Shown piece after piece: positions 18,645-55,408 of a stretch of DNA of 64,000 nucleotides. The stretch comes from a virus. The stretch's first letter is position 1. The number at the start of each line of letters is the position of its first letter. The notes under the pieces are model-generated. The model was not told the DNA's origin, made no database searches, and saw only the letters and a list, made by a program, of their open reading frames with translations. Where the stretch lies: positions 1 to 64,000 of IMG/VR virus record IMGVR_UViG_3300031857_000065. One strand, 5' to 3'. The position numbers were made by a program, and so were the translations under genes.

Positions 18645-19265
18645 TTATTTTAAATCATCTATTTTGATTAATATCATAGATCGATATGGTTCAGACGTAT
18701 CTTCATCAATACAATATATAGGGTTTAAATAAAATGGATTTATTTCCATATTAATTTGTCTAAAATCAGAGTCTAAAATATCTTTATTTTCTATAAGATT
18801 CCTTCTACTACTGGTTAGCAAGTATGTACTTCCACTATTTTTTATGTTCTCTAGGGACTTTTTTATATTCTCATAAGAAAGATGTATAAAACAATCTCGC
18901 ACTATAACTAAATCCTTTTTAGGTAAAGGATCTTCTGTAATATCTAAATGTAGAAATTCATGCTGTGGATAATTTAGTCTGTTGTCATTGACGAATACTT
19001 CGGCAATGTCCGCTCCGACGTATTCGATTCCCGTCAAATTGACTTCTTTCATCCAATGAAAGTCACCACACGGTATGTCTAGAATTGATTTGATATTAAA
19101 TGTATCAAATAATTTTGGCAATGCATTTCTTAAAGGTTTTGTAGATTCTAATGTACTACCACCACCACTTCGAGTTTCTATGCATCCCCACCCATTTGCC
19201 GTTGGATTCATAGCATGTACAGCGTGTATTATAATCTCAAATTCGTGTTTAAGTTTTTCGTTCAT
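18645..19265 (-). CDS. Class I SAM-dependent methyltransferase
   Basis: Start placed at ATG 19265 (MNEKLKHEFE), giving 206 residues, because it overlaps the upstream oxygenase stop as ATGA; a longer in-frame reading to 19316 would run into the oxygenase gene. Motif I ILDIPCGDFHWM (61-72) is a typical SAM-binding loop, followed by EYVGADIAE (motif II) and LVIVRDCFIHLSYENI. The SGGGSTLEST block before motif I is common in methyltransferases of sugar-modification clusters. The acceptor is unknown; given its neighbours (oxygenase, carbamoyltransferases) a glycan or sugar hydroxyl or carboxyl is plausible. Confidence 0.8.
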   Translation of the reverse strand: MNEKLKHEFEIIIHAVHAMNPTANGWGCIETRSGGGSTLESTKPLRNALPKLFDTFNIKSILDIPCGDFHWMKEVNLTGIEYVGADIAEVFVNDNRLNYPQHEFLHLDITEDPLPKKDLVIVRDCFIHLSYENIKKSLENIKNSGSTYLLTSSRRNLIENKDILDSDFRQINMEINPFYLNPIYCIDEDTSEPYRSMILIKIDDLK

Positions 19266-19792
19266 GCAAAACTCCAATGCATGAATAGTTGAACAACATG
19301 CTGGTGTGGTTCGCAAATTAAATCATCACGCCAATGTGTCATTGTTGTTCCTAACATCATACCACCATCACCTCGACCAATATTCAAAGGAACTTGATTA
19401 TTTGTCTTATCAATACACCACAATGGCCATTCCTTATCTAAACTATTAAATAGCGTAATAGACATAGTGTAATCAAGACCTTGACGATCAACGTGTTTGT
19501 GTAAAGTTCCACCATTATAATAAATGCGTCCAAACGAATTAGCGGGAGTCATTTTAACTCCCAACTCGTCTTGCAATCTGTCTGTTAATGATCGCAATGC
19601 GGCCTCAAACTCTGGATGGTTTCCACCATACGAATTATCATAAAACTTTTGGTCACCACCTTCATAAACTAAACGATCTGTAGCTTTCATGTCATACATC
19701 AACTGAGCAAAGTCGTCGCACTGCTGGTGTGTCAGTACGTCTTTAATGTATGCATACCCATGTCGAGCAAAAAATTCTGATTGGTTGTTCAT
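19262..19792 (-). CDS. 2-oxoglutarate/Fe(II)-dependent oxygenase, prolyl-hydroxylase-like
   Basis: A 176-residue double-stranded beta-helix oxygenase. The HxD iron ligands are in LHKHVD (H100, D102); the distal His is either H153 (THWRDD) or one of EPHQH (H163/H165), so the exact ligand set is unsure. Similar short phage enzymes are prolyl 4-hydroxylase-like or sugar-directed. It overlaps its upstream neighbour, a carbamoyltransferase, and its downstream neighbour, a methyltransferase, by ATGA at both ends, so the three are tightly co-translated. The phage also encodes proteins with hundreds of Thr-Pro-Ser units and GT60 enzymes of the kind that glycosylate hydroxyproline, so prolyl hydroxylation is an attractive but unproven role. 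Confidence 0.78.
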   Translation of the reverse strand: MNNQSEFFARHGYAYIKDVLTHQQCDDFAQLMYDMKATDRLVYEGGDQKFYDNSYGGNHPEFEAALRSLTDRLQDELGVKMTPANSFGRIYYNGGTLHKHVDRQGLDYTMSITLFNSLDKEWPLWCIDKTNNQVPLNIGRGDGGMMLGTTMTHWRDDLICEPHQHVVQLFMHWSFA

Positions 19793-21345
19793 AACTGTGA
19801 TCCTCTGTTTTTTTGTATAATATAATCTTCCAATATAACGGCGTCCATCTCTTTACTATCTAGAACTGTGAGTGCTTCTTTATACGTATTCAAAATTGGT
19901 TTTCCTGCCACATTGAACGAAGTATTTAATAATACACCTATTCCAGTTTTATTATGCATTTCTGTTAATAAATTATATAAAAATTCATTTTGTTTTTTAG
20001 TTACAGTTTGTACTCTCGCTGTACCATCCACGTGCACTATTGCTTCTAGTTTATTTTTATATTCATCTTTTACTCTTGGACAAAAACTCATCCAACGGCT
20101 TTCAGTATTCCATTCAAAATATTTGTTAACATCTTCTAGACGGACCACGGGAGCGAAGGGACGATAATATTCTCTACCTTTTACTTTAGCATTCAATATA
20201 TCTTTTATTCCAGTAATAGCAGGATTACACAATATACTTCTATTTCCTAGTGCTCTTGGACCATGTTCACATCTATCTCGTACCACACCTACAATTTTAC
20301 CAGATATAATATAGTCTGCTAATTTAGCGATGTCAAGTACTTGTGCCGATCGTTCGTGTGCAATTCTTATTAATTCATGTCTATCCCATACTACGGGCCC
20401 AGCATATGTACAATCAATTGGTTCTGTTGGTTTGATAGTAGATGCTAATAATCCAACCGCCAACCCACAATCATTTGGATTAGGTGGAACAAATACGTTT
20501 CTAGTTCTAGCAAGTTTGGTATTATTTAATATATTAAGCCCACACCCACCAACTAAAATTAAGGGTAATGAAGGGTATTCCTTTAAAAATGGCGTTATCT
20601 CTTCTTCAAAAAGTTGCTCAAAGACAAATTGATTTGAAGCAGCTAAATCTTTAGCGTCTTGGCCAGTGAATCTAAATTCCTCTGGAATGTCAAGAACCTT
20701 CCTTATTGTAGTCACCGTTTCCGGTATTTTCCCATCATCCCCGCTATTATATATAGTATGTAATTTATTGACGAATTCTTCCGTGGCGTTTCCGTAGTTT
20801 GCAAACCCCATAATTTTTCCGGCGTACACCAAGTTTCCCCAAAACGGTTCTTCCTTTCGTATATCTTCAATATAATGTGCAACCAATCCATATGGAACAG
20901 CTAAATCTCTTTTACCAGAATATATTTTTGTAATACCCGCGCGCTTATCACCTATAAACACATTGAAAAATCCTTCATCTGAACCACCATCAGCTGATAC
21001 TATTAACGCATTACTATATGGGGATTGGTATAATCCAGAGTATGCGTGAGCTGTGTGGTGTGGTAACCATGTGTATTTTTTAGCGGGAAATATTTTATAG
21101 TATTCTTGGTGCACGGAATTATATATTACGCTTTCATATTCCGTTACTCCATATTTTTGATTAAAGTAGTTTTTTATTTCGTGAATCACTGCTATATTAT
21201 ATGGCTCTCTTATGTTATAGTAAAACCATAATGCGCAATTTTTTATTGAAGTAAATCTTTCTACTTCCACTACTTCTAAAAGTTTGTCATCTTTTGATAT
21301 AGCTATTGTTGCATTATGAGAACCAAACATTCCTATATTAAACAT
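19789..21345 (-). CDS. Carbamoyltransferase A (NodU/CmcH family)
   Basis: Start set at ATG 21345 (MFNIGMFGSHNATI), giving 518 residues, the same length as its paralogue at 22122-23681; a longer frame upstream would overlap the preceding gene by 89 bases. Family motifs are PHHTAHAYSGLY (about 95-106), VSADGGSDEGFF, GGCGLNILNN (266-275), EHGPRALGNRSI (360-371) and YYRPFAPV (393-400). These enzymes carbamoylate sugar hydroxyls using carbamoyl phosphate and ATP. It overlaps the GT31-like gene by 8 bases and the oxygenase by 4. Likely adds carbamoyl groups to the glycan made by neighbouring transferases; acceptor unknown. Confidence 0.92.
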   Translation of the reverse strand: MFNIGMFGSHNATIAISKDDKLLEVVEVERFTSIKNCALWFYYNIREPYNIAVIHEIKNYFNQKYGVTEYESVIYNSVHQEYYKIFPAKKYTWLPHHTAHAYSGLYQSPYSNALIVSADGGSDEGFFNVFIGDKRAGITKIYSGKRDLAVPYGLVAHYIEDIRKEEPFWGNLVYAGKIMGFANYGNATEEFVNKLHTIYNSGDDGKIPETVTTIRKVLDIPEEFRFTGQDAKDLAASNQFVFEQLFEEEITPFLKEYPSLPLILVGGCGLNILNNTKLARTRNVFVPPNPNDCGLAVGLLASTIKPTEPIDCTYAGPVVWDRHELIRIAHERSAQVLDIAKLADYIISGKIVGVVRDRCEHGPRALGNRSILCNPAITGIKDILNAKVKGREYYRPFAPVVRLEDVNKYFEWNTESRWMSFCPRVKDEYKNKLEAIVHVDGTARVQTVTKKQNEFLYNLLTEMHNKTGIGVLLNTSFNVAGKPILNTYKEALTVLDSKEMDAVILEDYIIQKNRGSQL

Positions 21346-22120
21346 ATTTTCGTAAAACCTTATTGTGAAATTGTATGTACTCTTCCGTACTACTGATTCT
21401 AAATCTATACGCAAAATACTTTTCATTTGCTATTATGTCATCGACGTAATCTACTAACGGGCCACCGTTATCGCCTAAACTTGTAGCGGATGTTTTTACA
21501 TCTTGATGTACTTCGTCCCAGACGGCATAATTTAATTTATTAAATAGTATTACTCCCACACCAAGATCTTCCATAGATAACGGATACGGTAAAGATAAAT
21601 ATTCTTCTTTATTGTTTACTAATTGTTGTACACAATCTTTTGATAGATAATTAAAACTTCCTCCGCAAAAATAATACTCATTGTTGTACATATTTCGTGC
21701 ACCATCATATTGTTTATCTTTTCTTTCCAGTGAATCTAGAAATTTGTGCATCTTTTTAATATCAAGGTAAGTCGTATTACAAATTCGAACTATATAATCA
21801 AATTCTAAATTATTAAGACACCACTCATATGCTATGATAAGTTTTTGATTACGTGGATCTGTAAGAGGATTGCTTACTACATCTTGTACCCCACACACAA
21901 GAATATTATTACCGTGGTTATCATACATAATCGCAGAACCCTTGGCGGGCGTTCCACTTAAATGTGAATACGGTTTATCTTCTAAATCATAACCTCCGTA
22001 ATAATGAATAACTGTTACGTCTGGGTGTTTTACTCTTGCCCATGTACTTTTTGCTAACGCATCTATTGCATTATATTCAAAATGCCACGTTGATTGGTTT
22101 AGTACTATAATTTTAGTCAT
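21338..22120 (-). CDS. GT31-like glycosyltransferase
   Basis: A 260-residue GT-A-type protein. FDYIVRICNTTYLDIKKMHKFL (central strand-helix region, about 107-128) occupies the place of the DxD strand, with no clean DxD. YYFCGGSFNYLSKDCVQQL (about 149-167) and SMEDLGVGVIL (182-192) match the GG-x-x-Y-x-x-S and E-D-x-x-x-G pattern of beta-1,3-galactosyl/GlcNAc (GT31/Fringe) enzymes. It sits between the two carbamoyltransferase paralogues, with 1- and 8-base junctions, implying a shared glycan substrate. Family is suggested by motif order only. Confidence 0.6.
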   Translation of the reverse strand: MTKIIVLNQSTWHFEYNAIDALAKSTWARVKHPDVTVIHYYGGYDLEDKPYSHLSGTPAKGSAIMYDNHGNNILVCGVQDVVSNPLTDPRNQKLIIAYEWCLNNLEFDYIVRICNTTYLDIKKMHKFLDSLERKDKQYDGARNMYNNEYYFCGGSFNYLSKDCVQQLVNNKEEYLSLPYPLSMEDLGVGVILFNKLNYAVWDEVHQDVKTSATSLGDNGGPLVDYVDDIIANEKYFAYRFRISSTEEYIQFHNKVLRKYV

Positions 22121-22121
22121 A

Positions 22122-23681
22122 TTAATCCTTTTTTATATAATAATTTTCCAAAATCAACCCATCCATTTCCACATTTTCTAGCATCCAGACAGCATCTCTG
22201 TATGTATTCAGAATTGGTTTTCCTGCGATATTGAAGGATGTATTTATTAATACACCGACTCCTGAAAGTCGTTTTACTTCACCTAATAGGTGATACAGAA
22301 AAGAATTTTGCATTTCTGTTACTGTTTGCAATCTAGCCGTGTTATCGATATGTGTGACAGATGGTAAAATTGATCGGTATTCCGTTTTTACTCTTGGGCT
22401 AAATGTCATCCAACGTGCTTCACCTTCCCAATCAAAATAAGTATTTGCATCTTCCAATCTAGTTACGGGTGCAAACGGACGATAATATTCTCTATGTTTG
22501 ACTTTTGCATTTAGTATATCTTTCATACCTACAGTTGGCATGCAAAGAATACTTCTGTTTCCCAATGCCCTAGCCCCGTGTTCAGAACGACCACGAACAA
22601 TTCCAATAATTTTTCCAGAAATTAAATCTTCTGCTAATTTTGTGAAATCTACTTCGGTTGCATTATATTTGTTTACGTACTCATGTAATAAATGTCTATC
22701 CCAAACTTCAGGTCCGATATAAGTGGAATCAAATGCATCCGATGGCTTTAAAAACCCTAACATAAATCCTAAACTCAATCCTCTATCGTCTGGATTTGGC
22801 GTTACATGCGTCTTTGTTAATTTATTTACTTGTGTGTTATTCAGTACATTTAAAGCACATCCACCAGTTAAACATAATTTGTCATCACTACCTATGATAT
22901 CTTTGTATGATAACTTTTCAAACAATTGCTCAAACGCATATTGAGAAGTTCTGACTACATCCACTTCTAACTGGCCAGTTAACTCATCTGGATAACCTAA
23001 TTTTTTATAATTGTTATACTTGTCCTCGTAAGTAGAATGATGTCCTTTGTAGTATTCTAAAAAATTATTTATGTTATTGTGTAAAATTTTACCGTATGCT
23101 GACAATCCCATCAACTTACCCGAATGTACCAGATATCCTTGAAATCTATCTTGTTTGCTCAATGAACTACAATAAAATCCAATTTGTGCATATTTTTCTC
23201 CGATATTATAATCAGGTTCCGTTCTATATAATGTGACTCCATTCTGTCTAGTTGCTTTATAAAAATTAAAACACCCATCATTACCACCACCATCAAAACT
23301 AATAATTGTTGCTTCTTTTAAATTAGTTTGATAAAATGCATTATACGCGTGTCCTTCTTGGTGACCCATCTCTATTAAATTTTTTGCGTTAAAAATATCT
23401 AAAACACTTCCGTGTGCAGACCAATATCCACCCGTGAGTACTTCCAAATCTGTAGGGTTACATATTAGATTTTGGTATTTGTCTGCACCATATTTTATTT
23501 TGAAGTATAGAAGTATTTCTTTTACAGCATGTATAGGATTATGAGTGGTAGGTAGATACCACGTTAAACTTATATTTTTAACGTTTAGCCATCTTTCCAA
23601 TTCCACAACTTCTAGAATTTCATCATCTCGACTTATCGTAAATGACGCATTGTGTCCTGTGTATATTGATAAATTAAACAT
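22122..23681 (-). CDS. Carbamoyltransferase B (NodU/CmcH family)
   Basis: A 519-residue paralogue of carbamoyltransferase A. It has MGHQEGHAYNAFYQ (105-118), SFDGGGNDGCFNF, GGCALNVLNN, EHGARALGNRSI and EYYRPFAPV. The N-terminal MFNLSIYTGHNASF aligns with that of A. The pair has clearly diverged (for example HQEGH for HHTAH), so they probably modify different positions or sugars. It sits just downstream of the GT60 gene at 23694 and one base from the GT31-like gene. Predicted to transfer carbamoyl from carbamoyl phosphate onto a sugar hydroxyl of a nucleotide sugar or glycan. Confidence 0.92.
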   Translation of the reverse strand: MFNLSIYTGHNASFTISRDDEILEVVELERWLNVKNISLTWYLPTTHNPIHAVKEILLYFKIKYGADKYQNLICNPTDLEVLTGGYWSAHGSVLDIFNAKNLIEMGHQEGHAYNAFYQTNLKEATIISFDGGGNDGCFNFYKATRQNGVTLYRTEPDYNIGEKYAQIGFYCSSLSKQDRFQGYLVHSGKLMGLSAYGKILHNNINNFLEYYKGHHSTYEDKYNNYKKLGYPDELTGQLEVDVVRTSQYAFEQLFEKLSYKDIIGSDDKLCLTGGCALNVLNNTQVNKLTKTHVTPNPDDRGLSLGFMLGFLKPSDAFDSTYIGPEVWDRHLLHEYVNKYNATEVDFTKLAEDLISGKIIGIVRGRSEHGARALGNRSILCMPTVGMKDILNAKVKHREYYRPFAPVTRLEDANTYFDWEGEARWMTFSPRVKTEYRSILPSVTHIDNTARLQTVTEMQNSFLYHLLGEVKRLSGVGVLINTSFNIAGKPILNTYRDAVWMLENVEMDGLILENYYIKKD

Positions 23682-23693
23682 AACCGTTTTATG

Positions 23694-24617
23694 TTACAGA
23701 GTCTTAATTTGTTTATTTTTGAAATCTATTCCTGAAAATTGCTCGTACTCATCTAGAGTTCGATGTGTACCCAGACCGTATTTACCCAGATCACCACCTT
23801 CAAATAACCTTCGAAGTCGTTCCATCGCAACTTTATGTCTATACTGTCCAAATTCCGGTGGTAGTACGGTAAAGTGTTTTTTGTTTGGTTCGTTATGTGC
23901 TCTATGCCACGATACTATTCTATCGGGCGTGTATATATCATATCCTTTTGTATACGATCTTACGGCTAAAGCAAATTCTTCACCAGTATAATAATGTAAT
24001 GGATCTTGTTCCACTTCAACTACCCATTGGCCGTCTGAAAATATAAACCCACCATATAGTACGGGGACTCTTACATTTTTATATCCAGTACGCTGTTCAT
24101 TTTCATATCCACCGTATTCAATCCAGTATTGACTAGTTATATTTTTTATTTTAGGTATTTGTATTTTATCCATATCAAATATATTACTAAACAAATAGTC
24201 TATACCATATTCGTCATTTCTAGAGTATGATGGAGATAAATATGAAATTATAGGTTTTGGTGATATGTTTCTTAAATTTTCTATATTTCGTATTAACACG
24301 GAGTCCCAATGTTTTATAACCCGAGTGTGTGAATCTATTTGTAATGCATATCTTTCATTTGCATAATATTTCTGTGCTATATTTCTTGCCCAACAACCAC
24401 CTCTTGATTCTGTCCAATGGTGCAATTCTAAATGTATTGGATACTTGCCGAGTAAATGATTGATGCAGTTTTCATTCGTCTCTGGCTCTTCATCAAATTG
24501 GTGCACTACAGAAAATACTAATCTTTGAGGATTTTCGGCTTTACTAATTAGGTCTAGTATGGTATGTGGTAGTTCATAATCACGAAAACTTGCAATTGCT
24601 ATAAAGATTTTTTCCAT
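23694..24617 (-). CDS. GT60-like (Skp1 GnT1-type) glycosyltransferase
   Basis: A 307-residue enzyme with the PF11397/GT60 pattern: IFIAIASFRDYELPHTILDLI at the N-terminus, ESRGGCWARNI, YALQIDSHTR with the DSH metal motif at 95-97, TGEEFALAVRSYTKGYDIYTP (GEE about 212-214), SWHRAH, and the C-terminal GLGTHRTLDEYEQFSGIDF. GT60 enzymes in eukaryotes add alpha-GlcNAc to hydroxyproline of Skp1. It is single-domain, separated by 2 bases from the three-domain transferase gene and followed by carbamoyltransferase B. The donor here cannot be told from sequence. One of four GT60-type domains in the window. Confidence 0.85.
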   Translation of the reverse strand: MEKIFIAIASFRDYELPHTILDLISKAENPQRLVFSVVHQFDEEPETNENCINHLLGKYPIHLELHHWTESRGGCWARNIAQKYYANERYALQIDSHTRVIKHWDSVLIRNIENLRNISPKPIISYLSPSYSRNDEYGIDYLFSNIFDMDKIQIPKIKNITSQYWIEYGGYENEQRTGYKNVRVPVLYGGFIFSDGQWVVEVEQDPLHYYTGEEFALAVRSYTKGYDIYTPDRIVSWHRAHNEPNKKHFTVLPPEFGQYRHKVAMERLRRLFEGGDLGKYGLGTHRTLDEYEQFSGIDFKNKQIKTL

Positions 24618-24619
24618 TT

Positions 24620-28337: not shown

Positions 28338-28431
28338 AACCATTTCCTCTTAATTATTTTTCAGTATTACAATTTAGTATATTCGTACTGTACTATAATA
28401 CATATTTACGTTTTTACCTCACCAATTGATT

Positions 28432-42000: not shown

Positions 42001-42001
42001 T

Positions 42002-43243: not shown

Positions 43244-43244
43244 A

Positions 43245-44564: not shown

Positions 44565-44594
44565 AAAACCCTCATTTATATAACCTGTACACAA

Positions 44595-44649: not shown

Positions 44650-44655
44650 GGTTTA

Positions 44656-45120: not shown

Positions 45121-48100
45121 TTACGTACAAAGGAATTGACTTCCACCACAGTCTACATAATCCACACATGCTAGTTCATAAGTTCCGAGATTACAATAGT
45201 ATAGATTTACTCCAATACACGCATACGTGCCGTCTTGACACGAAGATGTCGGTGATGGTGTTACTGGTGCGGGTGTTGGTGCAGGTGTTACTGGTGCAGG
45301 TGTTGGTGCTGGTGTTGGCGAAGGCGTTACTGGTGCAGGTGTTGGTGATGGTGTTGGCGAAGGCGTTACTGGCGATGGTGTTGGTGACGGCGTTGGTGAA
45401 GGCGTTACCGGTGATGGTGTTACTGGCGAAGGTGTTGGTGATGGTGTTGGCGAAGGCGTTACTGGTGATGGTGTTACTGGTGATGGGGTAACAGGTGAAG
45501 GCGTTACAGGTGACGGCGTTACTGGCGATGGCGTCGGTGACGGCGTTGGCGAAGGCGTCACTGGCGATGGCGTTCTTGTTTTAGATGGAGTTATCGTCGG
45601 TGTCGGTGTAATAGTCGGTGTTACTGATGGTATAATATTTTCTAATTGAATTGCCGCTGCTTTAATATTTAACGTCTGGCTGTGGGTCCAATCTAACTGT
45701 CCAGCTGTACTTGATGCATATTTTTTGGACATATTTACTTCAAAATCATATGTCAATGCCGTACTGGTTGTTGTCCATTCCGAGGTAGATCCTCCTGCCG
45801 CTGACAACGTACTTGGTGAACCGAATGCATTTACTCCAACACCAATTCCAATCATTAAAGAACTATTATCCGCATCTGTGTATAATGGAACGAACATACT
45901 TGTGCCGTTTGTACTGGTAAAATCTTTATCCCACACGGCTACAGCATTTTTATAATTAGTATGATACATACGATAATACATAGTACCGTTATACGCAATT
46001 TCTAATGCACCTGTGCCAGAATTTGGACTGAATAATGTCCAGATTGTTAGAGCAATACCATCACCAATATTAGCTGATTCTTGTTGCATTGTTAATGCGG
46101 TTCTTCCCCAACTTCCAGACCACCACATTGCTGTCGGTTTACCGTATGTTGGAAATTCTGCCTGTGAAGCCACACGTGCTACTAACGCTGTAGCGTTTGA
46201 TTGTACGGTCCATGTATGTGATCCTGTAGATGCTCCCGTTGTTGTATTACTACTTGCTGACCCACTAGCAAGTTCAATAACCATTGTTCCCGGTGTGTTA
46301 GAAGGCGTAATAGACGGTGTTCTGGTAATAGACGGCGTAGTGGTAATACTCGGCGTTCTAGTAATAGACGGCGTTCTAGTAATAGACGGTGTTGTAGTAA
46401 TACTTGGCGTTCTAGTAATAGACGGCGTTGTTGTAATACTTGGCGTGATACTTGGCGTTCTTGTAATAGAAGGCGTTGTAGTAATGCTTGGCGTAGTGGT
46501 AATAGACGGTGTTTTGGTAATACTTGGCGTGATGGTAATACTTGGAGTAATACTTGGCGTAGTAGTAATAGATGGTGTAGTCGTAATAGACGGCGTTCTA
46601 GTAATACTTGGCGTAGTAGTAATAGATGGTGTTGTAGTAATAGAAGGCGTTGTCGTAATACTTGGTGTTCTGGTAATACTTGGTGTAGTCGTAATAGATG
46701 GTGTAGTGGTAATAGACGGCGTAATACTAGGAGTAATACTTGGTGTTCTGGTAATACTAGGCGTGGTAGTAATAGATGGCGTAGTTGTTACGCTTGGCGT
46801 TCTAGTAATAGACGGTGTAGTAGTAATACTTGGCGTTGTAGTAACACTCGGCGTTTTCGTAATAGAAGGCGTTGTAGTAATAGAAGGCGTTACCGTAATA
46901 CTTGGAGTAATACTCGGCGTTGTAGTAATAGAAGGCGTTGTAGTAATAGAAGGCGTTGTCGTAATACTTGGTGTTCTGGTAATACTAGGAGTAGTAGTAA
47001 TAGATGGTGTGATGGTAACAGATGGTGTAACGGTAATACTTGGCGTTTTAGTAATAGATGGCGTAGTTGTAATTGATGGAGTAATACTTGGCGTTACGGT
47101 AATACTCGGCGTTGTAGTAATACTTGGCGTTGTAGTAATAGAAGGCGTTTTAGTAATACTTGGAGTAATACTTGGCGTTGTAGTAATACTTGGCGTTGTA
47201 GTGATAGAAGGTGTAGTAGTAATTGACGGCGTTTTAGTAATACTTGGCGTTGTTGTAATACTTGGTGTAGTGGTAATACTTGGGGTTCTAGTAATAGAAG
47301 GCGTTTTTGTAATACTTGGTGTAGTTGTAATAGATGGAGTAATACTTGGTGTAGTTGTAATAGACGGTGTTGTAGTAATACTTGGTGTAGTCGTAATAGA
47401 TGGTGTGGTGGTAATAGACGGAGTTACACTTGGTGTTGTAGTAATACTTGGCGTAATGGTAATAGAAGGTGTAATGCTAGGTGTTGTAGTAATAGACGGC
47501 GTTCTGGTAATAGAAGGCGTAGTGGTAATACTTGGCGTTCTAGTTACGGAAGGTGTGGTTGTAATAGACGGTGTGGTAGTAATACTTGGCGTTTTAGTAA
47601 TAGATGGCGTAGTTGTAATTGATGGAGTAATACTTGGCGTAACAGTAATAGACGGTGTAGTAGTAATACTCGGGGTTCTAGTAATAGAAGGCGTAGTGGT
47701 AATAGATGGTGTAATACTAGGCGTAATAGTAACAGAAGGCGTTGTAGTAATACTTGGTGTTGTAGTGACAGAAGGCGTTATCGTAATACTTGGCGTAATA
47801 CTTGGCGTAGTCGTAATAGACGGCGTTCTGGTAATAGACGGCGTAGTGGTAATAGACGGCGTAATACTGGGCGTAGTAGTAATAGAAGGCGTAGTGGTAA
47901 TACTTGGTGTGGTGGTAATAGATGGAGTAGTCGTAATGGATGGTGTAATGCTTGGTGTAGTTGTGATAGAAGGCGTTACCGTAACACTAGGCGTTCTTGT
48001 AATAGAAGGCGTTATCGTAATACTCGGCGTTTTAGTAATAGAAGGCGTAGTAGTAATACTTGGCGTTCTTGTAATAGATGGTGTAGTAGTAATAGAAGGC

Positions 48101-49770
48101 GTTGTCGTAATACTTGGCGTAATACTTGGTGTAGTTGTAATAGATGGTGTAGTAGTTACTGATGGCGTGGTAGTAATAGACGGCGTTACCGTAATACTTG
48201 GTGTAGTCGTAATAGAAGGCGTTTTGGTAATACTTGGCGTTGTAGTAATAGAAGGCGTAGTTGTAATAGAAGGCGTTTTGGTAATACTTGGTGTGGTAGT
48301 AATAGATGGTGTAGTGGTAATAGATGGAGTAATACTTGGTGTGGTAGTAACACTAGGCGTGGTGGTGATAGACGGTGTAGTAGTTACTGATGGTGTTGTA
48401 GTGATACTTGGTGTATTTGTAACAGATGGTGTTGTGGTAATAGAAGGCGTAGTTGTAATTGATGGAGTAATACTCGGTGTTGTGGTAATAGACGGCGTAG
48501 TAGTAATAGAAGGCGTTACCGTAACACTCGGTGTTTTTGTAATAGAAGGCGTAGTAGTAATAGACGGTGTTACCGTAATACTTGGGGTTACACTAATCCC
48601 CGGCGAAGACGTAATACTTGGCGTAATACTTGGCGTTTTAGTAATAGATGGTGTAACTGTAATACTTGGAGTAGTTGTAACTGACGGTGTTGTGGTAATA
48701 GACGGCGTAGTGGTAATAGACGGCGTAGTGGTAATAGACGGCGTAGTGGTAATTGACGGTGTAATACTTGGAGTAATACTTGGCGTAGTAGTAATAGATG
48801 GTGTAGTCGTAATAGAAGGCGTGGTAGTAATACTTGGCGTAGTAGTAATAGATGGTGTTTTGGTAACACTTGGTGTTGTAGTAATAGAAGGCGTGGTAGT
48901 AATACTTGGTGTTCTGGTAATACTAGGAGTGGTAGTAATAGATGGCGTAACGCTTGGCGTCGTGGTAACACTAGGGGTAGTTGTAATAGACGGCGTTGTA
49001 GTAATACTTGGAGTAGTTGTGATAGACGGTGTAGTGGTAATAGATGGTGTAACACTTGGCGTAGTTGTTACGCTTGGCGTTGTAGTAATAGAAGGTGTGA
49101 TACTTGGGGTTACCGTAATAGATGGCGTTCTGGTAACACTCGGTGTTGTAGTAATAGAAGGTGTTTTAGTAATAGATGGTGTAATGGTAATACTTGGCGT
49201 AATACTTGGCGTTTTAGTAATAGATGGTGTAACAGTAATACTTGGCGTAATACTTGGCGTAGTGGTAATAGACGGCGTAGTGGTAATAGACGGCGTAGTA
49301 GTAATACTTGGCGTTTTAGTTACGCTTGGTGTAGTCGTAATAGAAGGCGTTCTAGTAATACTTGGGGTGATAGTAATTGATGGCGTAGTCGTAATAGATG
49401 GCGTTCTAGTAATACTTGGCGTAGTTGTAATAGATGGTGTAATAGTAATAGAAGGTGTAACTGTAATACTTGGCGTAGTAGTAGCAGTAATAGACGGAGT
49501 TATCGTAATTGAAGGGGTGTTAGTAACACTAGGTGTAGTTGTTACTGTTATTGACGGAGTAATACTTGGCGTTCTAGTAATAGAAGGCGTAATACTTGGC
49601 GTAATTGTGATTGATGGTGTAATACTAGGCGTTACGCTTCTCGACGGAGTAATACTTGGTGTAACCGATGGAGTACGAGTAATTGAAGGCGTAGGCGTTG
49701 GTGTTATTGCCCCAAATAAACCAAACGACCTAACACTAGCACCACCTCGTGCACCAAGTACCGGAGTCAT
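45121..49770 (-). CDS. Giant mucin-like TPSITT-repeat protein with globular domain and six-Cys tail (1,549 aa)
   Basis: Order: 22-residue leader (TPVLGARGGASVRSFG), about 1,130 residues of TPS(I/V)T(T/R/K/V) repeats of six residues with interspersed four-residue units, a globular beta-rich domain (about 1158-1370: TAMWWSGSWGRTALTMQQ, YYRMYHTNYKNAVAVWDKDF), a Pro-rich SPVTPSPTPS tract (about 1377-1506), and a six-Cys module at 1507-1548 with CX6CX7CX8CX5CX6C. No membrane segment. Probable fibre or surface protein with a long stalk and distal domains; hundreds of Thr/Ser sites suit dense O-glycosylation by the neighbouring enzymes. No cognate family recognised. Function inferred from layout. 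Confidence 0.75.
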   Translation of the reverse strand: MTPVLGARGGASVRSFGLFGAITPTPTPSITRTPSVTPSITPSRSVTPSITPSITITPSITPSITRTPSITPSITVTTTPSVTNTPSITITPSITATTTPSITVTPSITITPSITTTPSITRTPSITTTPSITITPSITRTPSITTTPSVTKTPSITTTPSITTTPSITTTPSITPSITVTPSITKTPSITPSITITPSITKTPSITTTPSVTRTPSITVTPSITPSITTTPSVTTTPSVTPSITTTPSITTTPSITTTPSITTTPSVTTTPSVTPSITTTPSITRTPSITTTPSITTTPSVTKTPSITTTPSITTTPSITTTPSITTTPSITPSITPSITTTPSITTTPSITTTPSITTTPSVTTTPSITVTPSITKTPSITPSITSSPGISVTPSITVTPSITTTPSITKTPSVTVTPSITTTPSITTTPSITPSITTTPSITTTPSVTNTPSITTTPSVTTTPSITTTPSVTTTPSITPSITTTPSITTTPSITKTPSITTTPSITTTPSITKTPSITTTPSITVTPSITTTPSVTTTPSITTTPSITPSITTTPSITTTPSITRTPSITTTPSITKTPSITITPSITRTPSVTVTPSITTTPSITPSITTTPSITTTPSITTTPSITTTPSITPSITTTPSITRTPSITTTPSITPSITITPSVTTTPSITTTPSVTITPSITPSITTTPSITRTPSITTTPSITVTPSITPSITTTPSITKTPSITTTPSITTTPSVTRTPSITTTPSITRTPSITTTPSITPSITITPSITTTPSVTPSITTTPSITTTPSITTTPSITTTPSITPSITTTPSITKTPSITRTPSITTTPSITTTPSITKTPSITTTPSITTTPSITTTPSITPSITKTPSITTTPSITTTPSITVTPSITPSITTTPSITKTPSITVTPSVTITPSITTTPSITRTPSITTTPSITTTPSITTTPSITPSITVTPSITTTPSITKTPSVTTTPSITTTPSITRTPSVTTTPSITTTPSITRTPSITPSITPSITTTPSITTTPSITRTPSITTTPSITTTPSITTTPSITRTPSITTTPSITTTPSITPSITITPSITKTPSITTTPSITTTPSITRTPSITPSITTTPSITRTPSITTTPSITRTPSITRTPSITTTPSITRTPSITPSNTPGTMVIELASGSASSNTTTGASTGSHTWTVQSNATALVARVASQAEFPTYGKPTAMWWSGSWGRTALTMQQESANIGDGIALTIWTLFSPNSGTGALEIAYNGTMYYRMYHTNYKNAVAVWDKDFTSTNGTSMFVPLYTDADNSSLMIGIGVGVNAFGSPSTLSAAGGSTSEWTTTSTALTYDFEVNMSKKYASSTAGQLDWTHSQTLNIKAAAIQLENIIPSVTPTITPTPTITPSKTRTPSPVTPSPTPSPTPSPVTPSPVTPSPVTPSPVTPSPVTPSPTPSPTPSPVTPSPVTPSPTPSPTPSPVTPSPTPSPTPAPVTPSPTPAPTPAPVTPAPTPAPVTPSPTSSCQDGTYACIGVNLYYCNLGTYELACVDYVDCGGSQFLCT
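46300..49704 (-). repeat. TPSITT repeat array of the 1,549-aa protein
   Basis: About 3.4 kb coding for near-identical hexads, basic period 18 bp with frequent 12-bp short units (TPSI/TPSV). The protein is strongly conserved while codons vary, including serine switching between AGT and TCT/TCC in adjacent units. That pattern suggests selection on the protein and, perhaps, against recombination between exact copies. Confidence 0.9.
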
Positions 49771-49779
49771 ACAATCTTA

Positions 49780-50295
49780 TTAAACGAAAGGTATTACTGA
49801 TGCTAACACAGTAAATGTAGCATTTGCTGTTTTTATTATAACATACGAATACACATCAATACAATTTGTGTTACCCGCTGAGGGAACAGCACCACCTTGC
49901 CATTTTGGTGTTACAGAAGCACCATCAATTGTATGAGATGTGACATAAAATGCGGGAGAACCGTTTGTTACTAAAAACGCCAAACTCAAACTTTGCCCAA
50001 TATACATTATATTATTTAATGTAGTTGAAATGTCACCTGTGAAGTTTAGAGTCCAATTACCCGATGAGTTGGTTGTATAATACAACACCCCTTGTGATAA
50101 TACATTAAAATTAATTGTCCCCGTTGCCGCAGTCGCAGCAATAGTATTTTTTTCTAATATTTGTTGTAGAACTGTCGTACCGCCAACATGAAGAGAACCA
50201 CTTGGTGTGGTCACATCTCCAACTGATAGTTTGTTCACAGGTCCGATATTCGTTCCAGTTCTTATTAATGCGCCAGAAAGTCTTGTCTCAGCCAC
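49780..50295 (-). CDS. Virion-type beta protein (171 aa)
   Basis: Starts at GTG 50295 behind GTGAGGTG at good spacing. Not a known family. It begins AETRLSGALIRTGTNIGP and then reads like a fibre or tip module: LSVGDVTTPSGSLHVGGTTVLQQ, FNVLSQGVLYYTTNSSGNWTLNF, IGQSLSLAFLVTNGSPAFYVTS and a hydrophobic end. Ser/Thr/Gly-rich beta pattern without Cys-rich segments. Located between the two giant mucin-like genes, so it is probably a partner in the same virion structure. It follows a TATTTATA element. Confidence 0.6.
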   Translation of the reverse strand: MAETRLSGALIRTGTNIGPVNKLSVGDVTTPSGSLHVGGTTVLQQILEKNTIAATAATGTINFNVLSQGVLYYTTNSSGNWTLNFTGDISTTLNNIMYIGQSLSLAFLVTNGSPAFYVTSHTIDGASVTPKWQGGAVPSAGNTNCIDVYSYVIIKTANATFTVLASVIPFV

Positions 50296-50319
50296 GAATA
50301 CACCTCACGTTATACATTT

Positions 50320-50331
50320 CATATAAATATG
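50320..50331 (-). promoter_or_regulatory. Candidate late-promoter element within a palindrome
   Basis: Minus strand CATATTTATATG, part of a 16-bp palindrome-like TTCATAT/ATATGAA, 25 nt upstream of the GTG at 50295. Differs from the other three copies only after TATTTATA. The dyad could also be a hairpin between the two genes. Confidence 0.42.
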
Positions 50332-50335
50332 AATT

Positions 50336-53300
50336 TTAATAACTAAATGAAGATTCGTTAGATAATGCGAACTCATAATTTGTAATATCATCACCAATTA
50401 CCCAATACAAACGTCCATTTTTGATAAATATTTCACCTGCTTTACGATTGGTTATTTGTACTCTAGCACCAGTAATTACTCTTGTCACCCCACTATAATC
50501 ACTGTATAATAATTGTTCTCCGTACACCCAAATATTACCTTGGTCTTTTACAGGTAAAGATTGATTTACACCACCAATGTATGAATGTTCCACCATTCCA
50601 ACTTTATAACGTAATTCTATACCATAAATTGCTATATCACTAACTTTTACTTCAGACGGGGTAATTGATGGAGTTATAGAAGGTGTTATTGTTACACTCG
50701 GTGTTACTGTAGGGGTAGTTGAACGAGTCGGTGTAATAGTTGGCGTAACCGTTGGTGTTTTTGTTACACTACGAGTCGGTGTTATCGATGGGGTTTTAGT
50801 TATTGATGGGGTAATACTGACGGTAATTGATGGTGTAATAGACGGAGTTGTAGTAACACTAGGTGTAACGCCTGATGTTCTAGTGATACTTGGTGTAGTT
50901 GTGATAGAAGGCGTTCTAGTAATACTTGGGGTAGTAGTAATACTTGGGGTAGTAGTAATACTTGGGGTAGTAGTAATTGAAGGCGTTGTAGTAATACTAG
51001 GTGTAACACTTGTTGTTCTAGTAATACTTGGGGTAGTCGTAATAGATGGCGTTCTAGTAATACTTGGCGTTGTGGTAATAGACGGCGTAGTGGTAATAGA
51101 TGGCGTGATACTTGGCGTTCTAGTGACACTAGGCGTTCTAGTAATACTTGGAGTAGTAGTAATAGACGGCGTAGTGGTAATAGATGGCGTAGTAGTAATA
51201 CTTGGTGTGGTAGTAATTGACGGCGTAGTAGTAATACTTGGCGTAATACTTGGCGTAGTTGTGATTGATGGTGTTCTGGTAACAGACGGTGTAGTAGTGA
51301 TACTGGGTGTAGAAGTAACAGACGGCGTAGTGGTAATAGATGGCGTGATACTGGGCGTTCTAGTAATACTTGGCGTTGTGGTAATAGACGGCGTAGTAGT
51401 AATACTTGGGGTAGTAGTAATAGAAGGTGTTCTAGTGACACTAGGTGTAGTGGTAATAGACGGCGTGGTAGTGATACTCGGTGTAACGGTAACAGATGGT
51501 GTTGATCCTGGTGTTGTAGTGATACTCGGCGTTCTAGTAATACTTGGCGTAGTTGTAATACTTGGCGTTGTGGTAATACTTGGCGTTGTGGTAATAGATG
51601 GCGTTGCCGTGATAGACGGTGTTGTAGTAATACTAGGCGTGGTTGTAACAGACGGTGTTGTAGTAATACTAGGCGTGGTTGTAACAGACGGCGTATTGGT
51701 GATGGATGGTGTAACACTAGGCGTTGTAGTAATACTTGGCGTAATAGTAACACTTGGTGTAACACTTGGTGTGGTGGTAATAGATGGCGTATTGGTGATG
51801 GATGGTGTAACACTAGGCGTTGTAGTAACAGATGGAGTAACACTTGGTGTAGTAGTAATAGACGGCGTTCTAGTAATACTTGGCGTTGTAGTAATACTTG
51901 GGGTAGTAGTAATACTTGGGGTAGTAGTAATACTCGGGGTAGTGGTAATAGATGGCGTAGTGGTTATTGATGGTGTAACGCTTGGCGTAGTTGTAACGCT
52001 TGGCGTAGTTGTAACGCTTGGCGTAGTTGTAATACTTGGAGTTCTAGTAATACTTGGCGTAGTTGTAATACTTGGCGTAGTTGTAACGCTTGGCGTAGTT
52101 GTAATACTTGGTGTGATACTTGGCGTAGTAGTAATACTTGGCGTAGTTGTTATACTAGGTGTGACACTTGGGGTCGTTGTTATACTCGGCGTAGTAGTAA
52201 TACTTGGGGTAGTAGTAATACTTGGCGTAACAGTAATAGATGGTGTTGCGGTAATAGAAGGCGTTGTGGTAATACTAGGCGTAGTAGTAATACTTGGGGT
52301 AACAGTTATACTAGGCGTAGTAGTAATAGATGGCGTAGTTGTTATACTTGGTGTGGTAGTAATTGACGGCGTAGTAGTAATACTTGGGGTAGTAGTAATA
52401 CTTGGCGTAGTGGTAATAGAAGGCGTTGTTGTAATAGATGGTGTTGTTGTAGCCGAAGGAGTTACAGTAACACTAGGGGTTGCTGTAATACTAGGACTTA
52501 CTGTAATACTTGGTGTAATAGAAGGTGTTGTGGTTATTGATGGAGTTACAGTTATTGATGGAGTTACAGATACACCAGGTGAAGCTGTAATACTTGGTGT
52601 AACTGTTACACTTGGAGTTGTGGTGATAGATGGCGTTGTAGTAATACTTGGCGTAGCCGTAACAGATGGTGTTGTAGTAATAGAAGGTGTGATACTCGGT
52701 GTTGTAGTAATACTTGGCGTAATTGTAACCGACGGCGTAATACTTGGAGTAGTAGTAATAGACGGCGTAGTAGTAACAGATGGTGTAGTAGTAATACTTG
52801 GCGTGATACTTGGCGTAGTAGTAATACTTGGCGTAGTTGTTATACTTGGTGTTACCGTTATTGATGGTGTAACGCTAGGTGTTCTAGTAACAGATGGCGT
52901 AGCAGTAATAGAAGGCGTAACGGTAACCGATGGCGTAGCAGTGACCGATGGTGTTGTTGTAATAGATGGTGTGACTGTAATAGATGGTGTAACTGTAACC
53001 GATGGTGTTATACTTGGTGTGGTAGTAATTGACGGCGTAGTAGTAATACTTGGGGTAGTAGTAATACTCGGCGTAGTGGTAACAGATGGTGTAGTAGTAA
53101 TACTCGGCGTAGTGGTTATTGATGGCGTAACGCTTGGAGTAGTTGTAACGCTTGGCGTAGTAGTAATACTAGGCGTGACGCTAGGTGTAGTAGTAATACT
53201 AGGCGTGGTGGTAATAGATGGCGTGACACTTGGAGTAGTGGTAATTGACGGCGTAGTGGTAATAGAAGGCGTTACCGTAATAGACGGTGTTGTGGTAATA

Positions 53301-55408
53301 CTCGGAGTAGTTGTAATTGACGGAGTAGTAGTAATACTTGGTGTAGTGGTAATAGATGGCGTAACGGTAATACTTGGCGTGACACTAGGAGTGGTAGTGA
53401 TACTTGGCGTTGTAGTAATAGATGGTGTAGTAGTAATACTGGGTGTAATACTTGGTGTTGTGGTGATACTTGGGGTAGTAGTAATACTTGGGGTAGTAGT
53501 AATACTTGGGGTAGTAGTAATACTTGGGGTTGTAGTAATAGATGGTGTAGTGGTAATAGATGGTGTAGTGGTAATGGAAGGTGTGACACTTGGTGTAGTA
53601 GTAATACTAGGCGTTGTAGTAATAGATGGCGTTCTAGTAATAGATGGCGTTACAGTAATACTTGGGGTAGTCGTAATACTTGGAGTAGTGGTAATAGAAG
53701 GCGTAGTAGTAATACTTGGAGTTCTAGTAATAGACGGTGTATTAGTAACGCTGGGTGTTGTAGTAATACTCGGAGTAGTCGTAATACTTGGTGTTGTGGT
53801 AATGGAAGGTGTGACACTTGGGGTAGTAGTAATACTAGGCGTGGTAGTAATAGACGGTGTTGTAGTAATACTTGGCGTAATACTCGGCGTGGTAGTAATA
53901 CTCGGCGTTGTGGTAATAGATGGTGTGACTGTAATAGATGGTGTTATACTTGGCGTAATAGTAATTGACGGCGTTGTTGTGATAGACGGTGTTACAGTAA
54001 TAGATGGTGTAGTGGTAATAGAAGGCGTAGTGGTAATACTTGGAGTTCTAGTAATACTCGGCGTTGTAGTAACACTCGGTGTAGTAGTAATAGACGGTGT
54101 GGTCGTAATAGATGGCGTAATACTTGGGGTGGTGGTAATACTAGGCGTTGTTGTAATACTAGGCGTTGTAGTAATACTAGGGGTAACAGTTATACTTGGT
54201 GTAGTGGTAATAGATGGTGTTACAGTAATAGACGGTGTTGGTGTTGGTGTTGGTGTTGTAGTTGGCGTTGGACTCGGTGCAGCAACGGCACCATCCAAAT
54301 CCATAATAACAATGGCTGCATCAGAAATTGTCGCATTTACGTTTGCTTCTGGACGCCATGCGATGACTTTTGTAATCGACCCCGCAGTTAATGATTCAAC
54401 GTCCGTCCATCCGTGTGCAAATTCGTCAATATTATTAACGGATGCTTCACGGAGTGGTTGGCGGGTTGCTGTATATTGACCAGGTTCCGTAGTTGAAGTA
54501 CCAAAGTGAGAAAAGACTGATGAGTTAGTTGCGCTAATTTTTGTCGTCCACGTACCCACCACTAAATGATTGCCTGTGTTTGCAATAGTTGGCGTATATG
54601 TTATTATGGCGGTTGGTGCACCGGCACTTGTAGAGTCTATTTGTGCAGATTCACTGACCGCGGCATACGTTTCTGCAAATTTAGACCTGTCTAATGCTAA
54701 TAATGTTCGATATTGATTGACAATATTTTGTCCGTTTGGTGAGCTATGTTCTAGTGAAAACGTTGTTGTTGCACCAAGAGAAGCCGTTACGATTGCAAAA
54801 TATGGTGTTATTCCTAATGTATCTTTTGCATAATACTGTGTTCGTACCATATAGGTGTTTGTGCCGTCAGACAATTGTACAACCATATCATCCGCTGCTT
54901 GTGCCGTTCGTGGAGTATTGACGTTACACGATCCAAACACAAACCATTCGCCAGCAGGAATATTAATAGAATCTATTGGAGTAGCTACGGCATTTGTTGT
55001 AGCAATTTGTGTGCTATCATATGAAGAAACGTCAGCATCATCTAATTCTAACACATTAATATACGCGTCAGAAATGGTAGCAGTACCGGCGGATGCACTC
55101 CATTGTATAGCAAATTCAATTGTTGTAGTAGATGAAGCAGTAAATACGTTTACATCCACTGCACTCATTCTGTCCGTTAAGTCTTGTGGTTCAAATTCAA
55201 ATTGCTGTAATGTTACTCCATTAGTAACGTTTTGTAGTCGAACGCGCGCACGAGAAGTTAACGCACTATGACTCATTATTGCTGACCAGAATATCGCATA
55301 GCGTTTACCCGCCGTAACACTAACACTTACGGAAGTACGACTACTGTATGCAGTTAGAGGGGATCCTGAAGCTGCTGTTTGTGCAGCTTGTGAATATATT
55401 CTGGCCAT
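50336..55408 (-). CDS. Giant mucin-like TPSITT-repeat protein with N-terminal beta domains (1,690 aa)
   Basis: Three tandem beta-rich N-terminal units (about 15-125, 130-240, 245-373) that each end in a similar strand (ISDAYINVLELDD; QYRTLLALD; ISDAAIVIMDLDG), then about 1,200 residues of TPSITT-type repeats (379-1585), then a 105-residue C-terminal domain (VKVSDIAIYGIELRYKVG ... ARVQITNRKAGEIFIKNGRLYWV). No cysteine module, unlike the other two mucin-like proteins. The N-terminal units resemble adhesin/jelly-roll modules; the C-terminus may anchor to the virion. Likely a long tail fibre or whisker with a glycosylated stalk. Function unproven. Confidence 0.75.
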   Translation of the reverse strand: MARIYSQAAQTAASGSPLTAYSSRTSVSVSVTAGKRYAIFWSAIMSHSALTSRARVRLQNVTNGVTLQQFEFEPQDLTDRMSAVDVNVFTASSTTTIEFAIQWSASAGTATISDAYINVLELDDADVSSYDSTQIATTNAVATPIDSINIPAGEWFVFGSCNVNTPRTAQAADDMVVQLSDGTNTYMVRTQYYAKDTLGITPYFAIVTASLGATTTFSLEHSSPNGQNIVNQYRTLLALDRSKFAETYAAVSESAQIDSTSAGAPTAIITYTPTIANTGNHLVVGTWTTKISATNSSVFSHFGTSTTEPGQYTATRQPLREASVNNIDEFAHGWTDVESLTAGSITKVIAWRPEANVNATISDAAIVIMDLDGAVAAPSPTPTTTPTPTPTPSITVTPSITTTPSITVTPSITTTPSITTTPSITTTPSITPSITTTPSITTTPSVTTTPSITRTPSITTTPSITTTPSITVTPSITTTPSITITPSITPSITVTPSITTTPSITTTPSITPSITTTPSITTTPSITTTPSVTPSITTTPSITTTPSITTTPSVTNTPSITRTPSITTTPSITTTPSITTTPSITVTPSITRTPSITTTPSITTTPSVTPSITTTPSITTTPSITTTPSITTTPSITTTPSITTTPSITTTPSITPSITTTPSITTTPSITTTPSVTPSITVTPSITTTPSITTTPSITTTPSITTTPSITVTPSITTTPSITTTPSVTPSITTTPSITTTPSVTPSITTTPSVTTTPSVTPSITTTPSITTTPSVTTTPSITTTPSITTTPSITTTPSITPSVTVTPSITVTPSITTTPSVTATPSVTVTPSITATPSVTRTPSVTPSITVTPSITTTPSITTTPSITPSITTTPSVTTTPSITTTPSITPSVTITPSITTTPSITPSITTTPSVTATPSITTTPSITTTPSVTVTPSITASPGVSVTPSITVTPSITTTPSITPSITVSPSITATPSVTVTPSATTTPSITTTPSITTTPSITTTPSITTTPSITTTPSITTTPSITTTPSITVTPSITTTPSITTTPSITATPSITVTPSITTTPSITTTPSITTTPSVTPSITTTPSITTTPSITPSITTTPSVTTTPSITTTPSITRTPSITTTPSVTTTPSVTTTPSVTPSITTTPSITTTPSITTTPSITTTPSITTTPSITRTPSITTTPSVTPSVTTTPSVTPSITNTPSITTTPSVTPSVTITPSITTTPSVTPSITNTPSVTTTPSITTTPSVTTTPSITTTPSITATPSITTTPSITTTPSITTTPSITRTPSITTTPGSTPSVTVTPSITTTPSITTTPSVTRTPSITTTPSITTTPSITTTPSITRTPSITPSITTTPSVTSTPSITTTPSVTRTPSITTTPSITPSITTTPSITTTPSITTTPSITTTPSITTTPSITRTPSVTRTPSITPSITTTPSITTTPSITRTPSITTTPSITRTTSVTPSITTTPSITTTPSITTTPSITTTPSITRTPSITTTPSITRTSGVTPSVTTTPSITPSITVSITPSITKTPSITPTRSVTKTPTVTPTITPTRSTTPTVTPSVTITPSITPSITPSEVKVSDIAIYGIELRYKVGMVEHSYIGGVNQSLPVKDQGNIWVYGEQLLYSDYSGVTRVITGARVQITNRKAGEIFIKNGRLYWVIGDDITNYEFALSNESSFSY
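50656..54274 (-). repeat. TPSITT repeat array of the 1,690-aa protein
   Basis: About 3.6 kb of six-residue repeat code, 18-bp period with occasional 12-bp units. Consensus T-P-S-(I/V)-T-(T/R/V/N/A). Codon use alternates as in the neighbouring array, yet the reading frame stays open throughout. The opposite strand is also open for long stretches as a by-product. Confidence 0.9.

Follow-up and report, generated by a model that had tools for sequence, protein, structure and literature searches.

A phage gene cluster that pairs GT60 glycosyltransferases with Ser/Thr/Pro-rich repeat proteins: a likely self-encoded mucin-type O-glycosylation system

The virus record IMGVR_UViG_3300031857_000065 is a 98,475-bp viral contig from an uncultured large lake phage. 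Its bases 1-64000, the stretch analysed here and called the window, hold a cluster in which genes for Ser/Thr/Pro-rich (PTS) repeat proteins lie among genes for GT60 glycosyltransferases and other sugar-related enzymes. We consider it likely that this cluster represents a phage-encoded, cytosolic, mucin-type protein O-glycosylation system. The core of this proposal, made in a first-pass annotation of the DNA, namely that the phage glycosylates its own repeat proteins, is strongly supported by the co-occurrence and adjacency of the two gene types, by the fold of one GT60 enzyme, and by the glycoproteins reported for phage XacN1 (PMC5852040).

The repeat proteins are encoded by three open reading frames (ORFs) found exactly where the first-pass annotation had placed them:

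28432 to 30468, minus strand: PTS1, mucin-like protein of 678 residues, with 279 Ser+Thr, 61% Ser+Thr+Pro and 40 TPS[IV]T units
45121 to 49770, minus strand: PTS2, mucin-like protein of 1549 residues, with 788 Ser+Thr and 168 TPS[IV]T units
50336 to 55408, minus strand: PTS3, mucin-like protein of 1690 residues, with a globular N-terminus of about 375 residues, 832 Ser+Thr and 171 TPS[IV]T units

Ser, Thr and Pro together account for 61-68% of PTS1-PTS3. A fourth PTS protein of 702 residues is encoded outside the window (L004:8774-10882), and the four sum to 2,229 Ser+Thr in 4,619 residues, a putative tandem-repeat acceptor of the kind that belongs to a mucin-type system. The repeat unit consists of TPS[IV]T followed by one variable residue, mostly T. 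Within the arrays, codon pairs six apart are often synonymous yet non-identical (in PTS3, 480 synonymous and 354 nonsynonymous); the repeat peptide is kept while the DNA drifts, and this pattern therefore fits selection on the amino-acid sequence. PTS1, which adjoins the cassette of GT60a and the fusion enzyme listed below, combines TPSIT and TPSPV repeats with a Cys-rich C-terminus. A Cys-rich terminal domain (C..G..LY.C....Y.L.C..Y.DCGGS...C) following TPSPV repeats is common to three of the four proteins, namely PTS1, PTS2 and the fourth. Long plus-strand ORFs at 46013-49783 and 50883-54479 were rejected as antisense artefacts of the repeats.

With regard to the enzymes, all four GT60-like domains named at first pass are recognised by PF11397, with scores of 109-242 bits against a curated cut-off of 21:

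23694 to 24617, minus strand: GT60a, putative polypeptide glycosyltransferase, single domain with a DSH motif (PF11397 2.6e-49)
24620 to 27391, minus strand: fusion of a hydroxyproline O-arabinosyltransferase domain (HPAT; residues 1-223, PF23452 2.4e-6), an O-fucosyltransferase domain (O-FucT; 303-590, PF10250 4.7e-28) and GT60b (694-872, PF11397 4.2e-31)
42002 to 43255, minus strand: GT60c, putative polypeptide glycosyltransferase (PF11397 2e-71)
43245 to 44594, minus strand: GT60d, putative polypeptide glycosyltransferase (PF11397 1.6e-65; phrog_24687 3e-142)

The O-fucosyltransferase-like domain had also been foreseen, and the N-terminal HPAT domain of this 923-residue fusion is an addition to the earlier picture. 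Each of the four GT60 domains carries a DxH motif (DSH or DAH), and D130 and H132 are invariant across 96 aligned GT60 sequences. In a Foldseek search of the PDB with the AlphaFold2 (AF2) model of GT60d (pLDDT 93.2), the top 32 matches were all polypeptide N-acetylgalactosamine (GalNAc)-transferases (best E-value 3.7e-11), several of them solved with mucin peptides, and the predicted structure points to a GT-A fold like theirs. Polypeptide GalNAc-transferases are the initiators of mucin glycosylation. A search of the PDB by sequence with the GT60 profile gave no match, so that these relatives came from the fold search. The catalytic, metal-binding DxH motif and Ser/Thr chemistry are common to GT27 and GT60 (PMC7185993); furthermore, the Trypanosoma cruzi GT60 makes GlcNAc-alpha-Thr on mucins (PMC9472816), and a Dictyostelium GT60 starts mucin-type glycosylation (PMC3188802). 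Because of the fold, the motif and these two activities, direct glycosylation of the repeat Thr would be the simplest reading of the phage enzymes.

The pairing of GT60 with PTS genes extends well beyond the window. A GT60 alignment search of viral contigs returned at least about 590 relatives, of which the best 80 were retained, and a PTS ORF was defined as one with at least 60% Ser+Thr+Pro over 60 residues, T being at least 12 and P at least 10. Such an ORF lies within 10 kb of 49 of the 83 viral GT60 loci, compared with 1 of 78 major-capsid control loci (Fisher p = 2e-17); a looser definition gives 53 GT60 loci and 4 controls, and when near-duplicates are merged at 80% identity the pairing is seen in 29 of 53 clusters. 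The nearest PTS gene lies no farther than 150 bp from GT60 in 26 of the 49 loci and within 1 kb in 30, where it is upstream of GT60 in 28; in close pairs it is usually the gene directly upstream. In 28 loci a GT60 and a PTS gene are direct neighbours, whereas choosing genes at random would give 10 such loci (and no more than 20 in any of 2000 draws). The gene of the presumptive initiating transferase is thus linked to that of its putative acceptor, as in a mucin-type system. The repeat sequence varies among phages (TPSITT, TPTATPTNTP, TPSVTITP), and it is the composition and the GT60 pairing that persist. Two GT60-positive phages (G005 and G008) first seemed repeat-free when searched with TPSITTTPSIT; a composition scan revealed adjacent TPTATPTNTP proteins instead, which makes the exact motif the wrong marker. 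Bacterial loci also pair GT60 with PTS proteins, 14 of them within 500 bp. In the Burkholderia-type loci L311, L316, L322 and L328, from four species, a PT-repeat protein is encoded about 4.05 kb downstream of GT60 on the opposite strand, so that this arrangement is conserved.

At the level of whole records, all 11 GT60-positive records that reach 100 kb carry PTS sequence, and so does 1 of 19 GT60-negative ones, a statistic that is indicative only, the set having been pooled from several searches under two PTS criteria. Nine of the 24 GT60-positive records without a nearby PTS gene hold TPxxTPxxTP elsewhere. The five records that reach 100 kb are all among these nine, two of the five (G049 and G061) with a single motif match each. 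Phages carrying the transferases but no repeat proteins, which the first-pass annotation had named as a refutation, were looked for: none of the 11 long records is of this kind, and the motif is missing only from shorter fragments. No PTS arrays were found in closely related GT60-negative phages with the same locus. The cleanest comparison is that among cultured phages with complete genomes: the jumbo phages XacN1 and RAS14 have GT60 together with 29 and 25 repeat-motif sites, respectively, and RaK2, SCTP-2, Atu_ph07, slurp01 and S-SCSM1 have neither GT60 nor any motif site. In XacN1, the PTS ORFs 369, 370 and 372 come after the tail sheath (ORF367) and sheath-stabiliser genes, and a PTS stretch closes the giant ORF325, which adjoins baseplate genes; PTS regions are also present in ORF350 and ORF384. 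Nearby lie the genes for GT60 (ORF334), a carbamoyltransferase and an HtrL homologue (ORF330). The XacN1 study reports that the virion proteome includes two or more glycoproteins, and its authors suggest the phage's own glycosyltransferases as their makers (PMC5852040). We conclude that some phages probably make mucin-like tail proteins and coat them with sugars themselves.

A third protein recurs with GT60 and PTS. The HtrL assignment made at first pass is confirmed by Pfam for the following gene:

31882 to 33738, minus strand: HtrL domain plus a second GT-A-like domain, 618 residues (PF09612 2.3e-17)

Homologues of this protein are present in 72 of the 83 viral GT60 loci and in none of the 78 controls; the module is therefore best described as GT60, HtrL and PTS with variable decoration enzymes. 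The HtrL model resembles the tandem glycosyltransferases LH3, LARGE1 and chondroitin polymerase, at a low TM-score, and because of this likeness the two-domain protein would fit a chain-extending enzyme. The window encodes the following accessory enzymes and candidates:

18645 to 19316, minus strand: methyltransferase, Methyltransf_25/12-like, phrog_3382 (Pfam 1.5e-5, just under cut-off; PHROG 2.4e-44)
19262 to 19792, minus strand: probable Fe(II)/2-oxoglutarate (2OG) oxygenase, phrog_2954 family (3.5e-25, a family labelled 'ferrochelatase')
19789 to 21426, minus strand: NodU/CmcH-type O-carbamoyltransferase 1 (Carbam_trans_C 7.7e-62, Carbam_trans_N 5.8e-18)
22122 to 23681, minus strand: O-carbamoyltransferase 2 (Carbam_trans_C 3.5e-56)
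27366 to 28343, minus strand: GDP-mannose 3,5-epimerase, for GDP-L-galactose supply (phmmer 4.7e-91 to the solved structure 2c59)
33751 to 34491, minus strand: FkbM-like methyltransferase, weak match (PF05050 0.0082)
34495 to 35319, minus strand: GT2-like transferase, weak match (PF00535 0.015), with homologues in 14 of the 83 GT60 loci
35330 to 36334, minus strand: GT4-like transferase (PF00534 8.6e-5)
36331 to 37212, minus strand: GT10 fucosyltransferase (PF00852 4.5e-16)
37216 to 37890, minus strand: FkbM methyltransferase (PF05050 1.5e-22)
38708 to 39307, minus strand: methyltransferase, Methyltransf_24/TylF-like (PF13578 1.7e-7)
40122 to 41039, minus strand: GDP-L-fucose synthase (phmmer 8.1e-86 to 4e5y)
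41041 to 42126, minus strand: conserved protein, possibly a transferase, with no family match and homologues in 19 of the 83 GT60 loci
59994 to 60635, minus strand: methyltransferase in the fibre region (PF13489 7.1e-5)

Pfam agrees with the earlier GT10 and two carbamoyltransferase calls, and phmmer now gives names to the GDP-sugar enzymes, GDP-mannose 3,5-epimerase and GDP-L-fucose synthase. Pfam also confirms methyltransferases of FkbM/TylF type; of the claim of at least five methyltransferases, five are plausible, several of them below the Pfam cut-off. Neither Pfam nor NCBIfam backs the GT31-like label for 39321-40118. The enzyme for the remaining step towards GDP-fucose, a GDP-mannose 4,6-dehydratase (GMD), is encoded on the conspecific contig G039 (1.3e-113); with epimerase, synthase and GMD encoded, both fucose and L-galactose donors can be phage-made from GDP-mannose. 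Scans of viral contigs for the GDP-fucose synthase and the 2OG protein returned almost exclusively conspecific sequences. A second sugar locus, at G039:79053-97707, holds by eye RmlA/RmlB-type dTDP-sugar enzymes, a DegT-like aminotransferase and several transferase-like genes, in addition to GMD.

In the mechanism that we propose, GT60 would add the first sugar, probably an N-acetylhexosamine from a UDP donor, directly to Thr or Ser in repeats of the TPSITT type. The chain would be extended or varied by the two-domain HtrL protein and the lineage-specific GT10, O-FucT, HPAT and GT4 enzymes, which would draw on nucleotide sugars that include GDP-L-fucose and GDP-L-galactose from phage enzymes, and the carbamoyl- and methyltransferases would cap the glycan. 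Dense glycans could turn the repeats of long tail or fibre proteins into stiff bottle-brush rods bearing hundreds of sugars, and may thus form the coat on the virion envisaged at first pass; such rods might extend the reach of the proteins, protect them from proteases, provide shielding, or promote adhesion to glycans or mucus. With the enzymes of the 19-28 kb cassette, the chain may also start on hydroxyproline.

Several observations weigh against this reading. About 40% of the viral GT60 loci lack a PTS protein at a distance of 10 kb or less, 15 shorter GT60-positive fragments lack the motif anywhere on the contig, and the PTS-rich phage fragments G041, G068, G070 and G077 have no detectable GT60. 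The capsid control loci lie away from fibre regions, and position may explain part of the enrichment, an effect that the whole-record comparisons lessen but do not abolish. Over the whole chain, GT60d reaches a TM-score of only about 0.45 with GalNAc-transferases, since the two have different C-terminal domains. As for XacN1, the main text of the study does not assign the glycoproteins to PTS ORFs or mention the repeats (PMC5852040). Lastly, the sugar-gene clusters of related T4-like phages are mostly interpreted as modifying lipopolysaccharide (LPS) or capsule, and the same view prevails for clusters of glycosyltransferases, carbamoyltransferases and 2OG enzymes in pelagimyophages, cyanophages and jumbo phages (PMC7029224, PMC7824862). 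As a separate observation, G041, an 86-kb fragment, encodes at 58848-73976 (L175-L176) five PTS-containing proteins, immediately preceded by genes resembling baseplate genes of gp25/gp6 type, and neither GT60 nor HtrL was detected on it.

If this usual interpretation applied here, the enzymes would remodel host LPS or capsule for superinfection exclusion, and the PTS proteins would be unmodified flexible fibre linkers that happen to share a hypervariable host-recognition island. The GT10, GT4 and FkbM genes of the cluster are indeed typical of polysaccharide loci. We nevertheless find this explanation unlikely, as GT60 members of known activity act on polypeptide Thr/Ser or hydroxyproline, GT60-PTS adjacency exceeds chance within loci and recurs in bacterial genomes, and the Pfam matches of the cluster genes scanned include no lipid-linked initiating transferase, flippase, polymerase or Gtr-type membrane system. 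Moreover, the GT60-negative cyanophage S-SCSM1 carries an O-FucT, carbamoyltransferase and 2OG cluster yet lacks the PTS motif; sugar clusters as such therefore do not bring PTS proteins with them. The LPS or capsule explanation is weakened but may still hold for the accessory transferases. Decoration of phage DNA bases, in the manner of TET/JBP-TAGT systems, was considered and rejected, its chance being close to nil: the TAGT family matches the fusion protein at 2e-4, under its cut-off, whereas PF11397 matches the same domain far more strongly (4e-31), and the transferases are linked to repeat-protein genes. Tet_JBP gave no match in five records, in a search to which the positive controls were equally silent.

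A Skp1- or extensin-like route deserves closer attention, although we regard it as unlikely: the 2OG oxygenase would hydroxylate the repeat Pro, and GT60 and HPAT would then glycosylate hydroxyproline rather than Thr. Every repeat contains Pro, and the probable oxygenase lies beside the two carbamoyltransferases, GT60a and the HPAT-O-FucT-GT60 fusion. The oxygenase claim of the first pass stands in part. The 19262-19792 protein belongs to phrog_2954, has HxD at residues 100-102 and is 30% identical (E=1e-6) to the last domain of a bacterial 1,170-residue chain arranged as HPAT-GT60-2OG(PF13640)-2OG, but it has no Pfam match, gave chance matches only in a phmmer search of the PDB, and falls in a family annotated inconsistently. 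Thus the S-SCSM1 gene beside O-FucT is a 2OG-Fe(II) oxygenase in one record copy and a ferrochelatase in the other (MK867354.2/NC_070962.1); the cyanophage phrog_2954 'ferrochelatase' is probably a 2OG-Fe(II) oxygenase. That bacterial chain comes from locus L350 (Marine bacterium B5-7), which, like L358 (Gammaproteobacteria), has HPAT, GT60, O-FucT and PF13640 2OG domains in other fusions, some in one chain, with the enzyme domains surrounding a PTS-rich protein (L350:606-4118 and L358:32-7166). The L358 PTS protein has a twin-arginine-like leader (GRRKLLKAGG), and these arrangements hint at bacterial hydroxyproline O-glycosylation before export. Kinship with such clusters of HPAT, GT60 and prolyl 4-hydroxylase (P4H) gives the hydroxylation idea merit for the 19-28 kb cassette. 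Against its generality, the PF13640 prolyl-hydroxylase domain was found in none of seven phage records tested, comparison with other GT60-positive phages turned up no homologue of the window 2OG protein, and HPAT and O-FucT homologues occur in 0 of the 83 viral GT60 loci, so that hydroxyproline is not the general rule; the described mucin-type GT60 enzymes act on Thr (PMC9472816). A hydroxyproline branch is thus plausible for the HPAT-O-FucT-GT60 cassette only, one of the two in the window. The first-pass view of Skp1 as the closest known logic does not stand, mucin-type Thr glycosylation by GT60/GT27 enzymes being the better match (PMC9472816, PMC3188802, PMC7185993).

Further genes accompany the PTS genes of the window:

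30686 to 30934, minus strand: small protein between PTS1 and the 30938 protein, an arrangement kept in relatives (tblastn matches beside the PTS gene in G005, G010, G019, G034 and G036)
30938 to 31825, minus strand: conserved protein syntenic with the PTS gene, with copies 40-45% identical beside a PTS gene in six related phages
49780 to 50295, minus strand: phrog_5906 domain protein (9.3e-30)

The phrog_5906 domain also forms the C-terminus of an 874-residue protein (L004:10885-13509) beside the fourth PTS protein. The contig carries T4-like head and tail genes. It is overlapped at both ends by G039 (166.6 kb), with 99.9% identity over 33.7 kb (window 1-33689) and 99.3% over 10.5 kb (G000:87972-98475), and these overlaps suggest a circular map of about 221 kb, that of a jumbo phage. 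Two other genes may be mentioned: the protein at 1517-2341, odd among tail genes, resembles by eye a choloylglycine hydrolase/acyltransferase-type N-terminal-nucleophile hydrolase, and that at 17553-18623, adjoining the glycosylation cassette, is a DUF6065 protein (Pfam 2.4e-64).

Among known systems, the best analogue would be the mucin-type Thr glycosylation of T. cruzi (TcOGNT) and Dictyostelium, and not Skp1. The phage proteins share with it PF11397, the DxH motif, a GalNAc-transferase-like predicted fold and Thr-rich repeats as putative acceptors; however, that system is eukaryotic, located in the Golgi and devoted to secreted surface mucins, whereas in the phage the enzyme and putative acceptor genes are adjacent, no secretory route is predicted for the enzymes, and several transferases share one cluster. 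Like the Skp1 pathway, the phage system would be cytosolic, with GT60 as initiator, fucose added later and perhaps an oxygenase acting first; Skp1, however, has one modified Pro where the phage has hundreds of repeats, the phage lacks a canonical P4H domain, and HPAT and O-FucT are not parts of the Skp1 pathway. In mycobacteriophage work by Freeman et al. in 2023 (cited in PMC12894461), phage enzymes reportedly glycosylate virion proteins, as proposed here, although the targets are said to be capsid and tail-tube subunits and the transferases others, with no GT60 or mucin repeats. In the algal virus PBCV-1, the acceptor and the enzymes are unrelated to ours, and mucin-type repeats are absent. 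Its Vp54 capsid protein (cited in PMC5852040) offers a parallel in being a structural protein glycosylated by virus-encoded enzymes independently of the host endoplasmic reticulum (ER). A further parallel is XacN1, which has a 43% identical GT60 (ORF334), an HtrL homologue and a carbamoyltransferase nearby, many PTS ORFs and reported virion glycoproteins; the main text of that study ties the latter to glycosyltransferases in general, with no mention of mucin-like repeats (PMC5852040). A search of the open literature brought up no previous account of GT60 being paired with PTS proteins, be it in phages or in bacteria.

Mucins are regarded as an invention of eukaryotes, and the role usually given to phage glycosyltransferases is to modify LPS or DNA. 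A wider proposition, about as credible as its opposite, is that GT60 and PTS proteins constitute a widespread prokaryotic mucin system, acting on the tail proteins of many tailed phages and on PTS proteins of some bacteria, with one branch in which fused hydroxylase, HPAT, O-FucT and GT60 domains would link arabinose to hydroxyproline, a chemistry seen elsewhere in plants. The idea can be put to the test with two cultured phages and with the public proteomics data on XacN1 virions (PXD008065). Should GT60 and the repeats belong to one system, many phage genes that have lacked an explanation would gain a testable function, and its cytosolic, single-operon format would be a practical tool for the production of mucin-like glycoproteins. 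Phage surfaces could then bear self-made mucin coats, with consequences for adhesion, shielding, and resistance to antibodies and proteases, and the evolutionary origin of mucin initiation by GT60/GT27 enzymes would become a question to be asked among prokaryotes.

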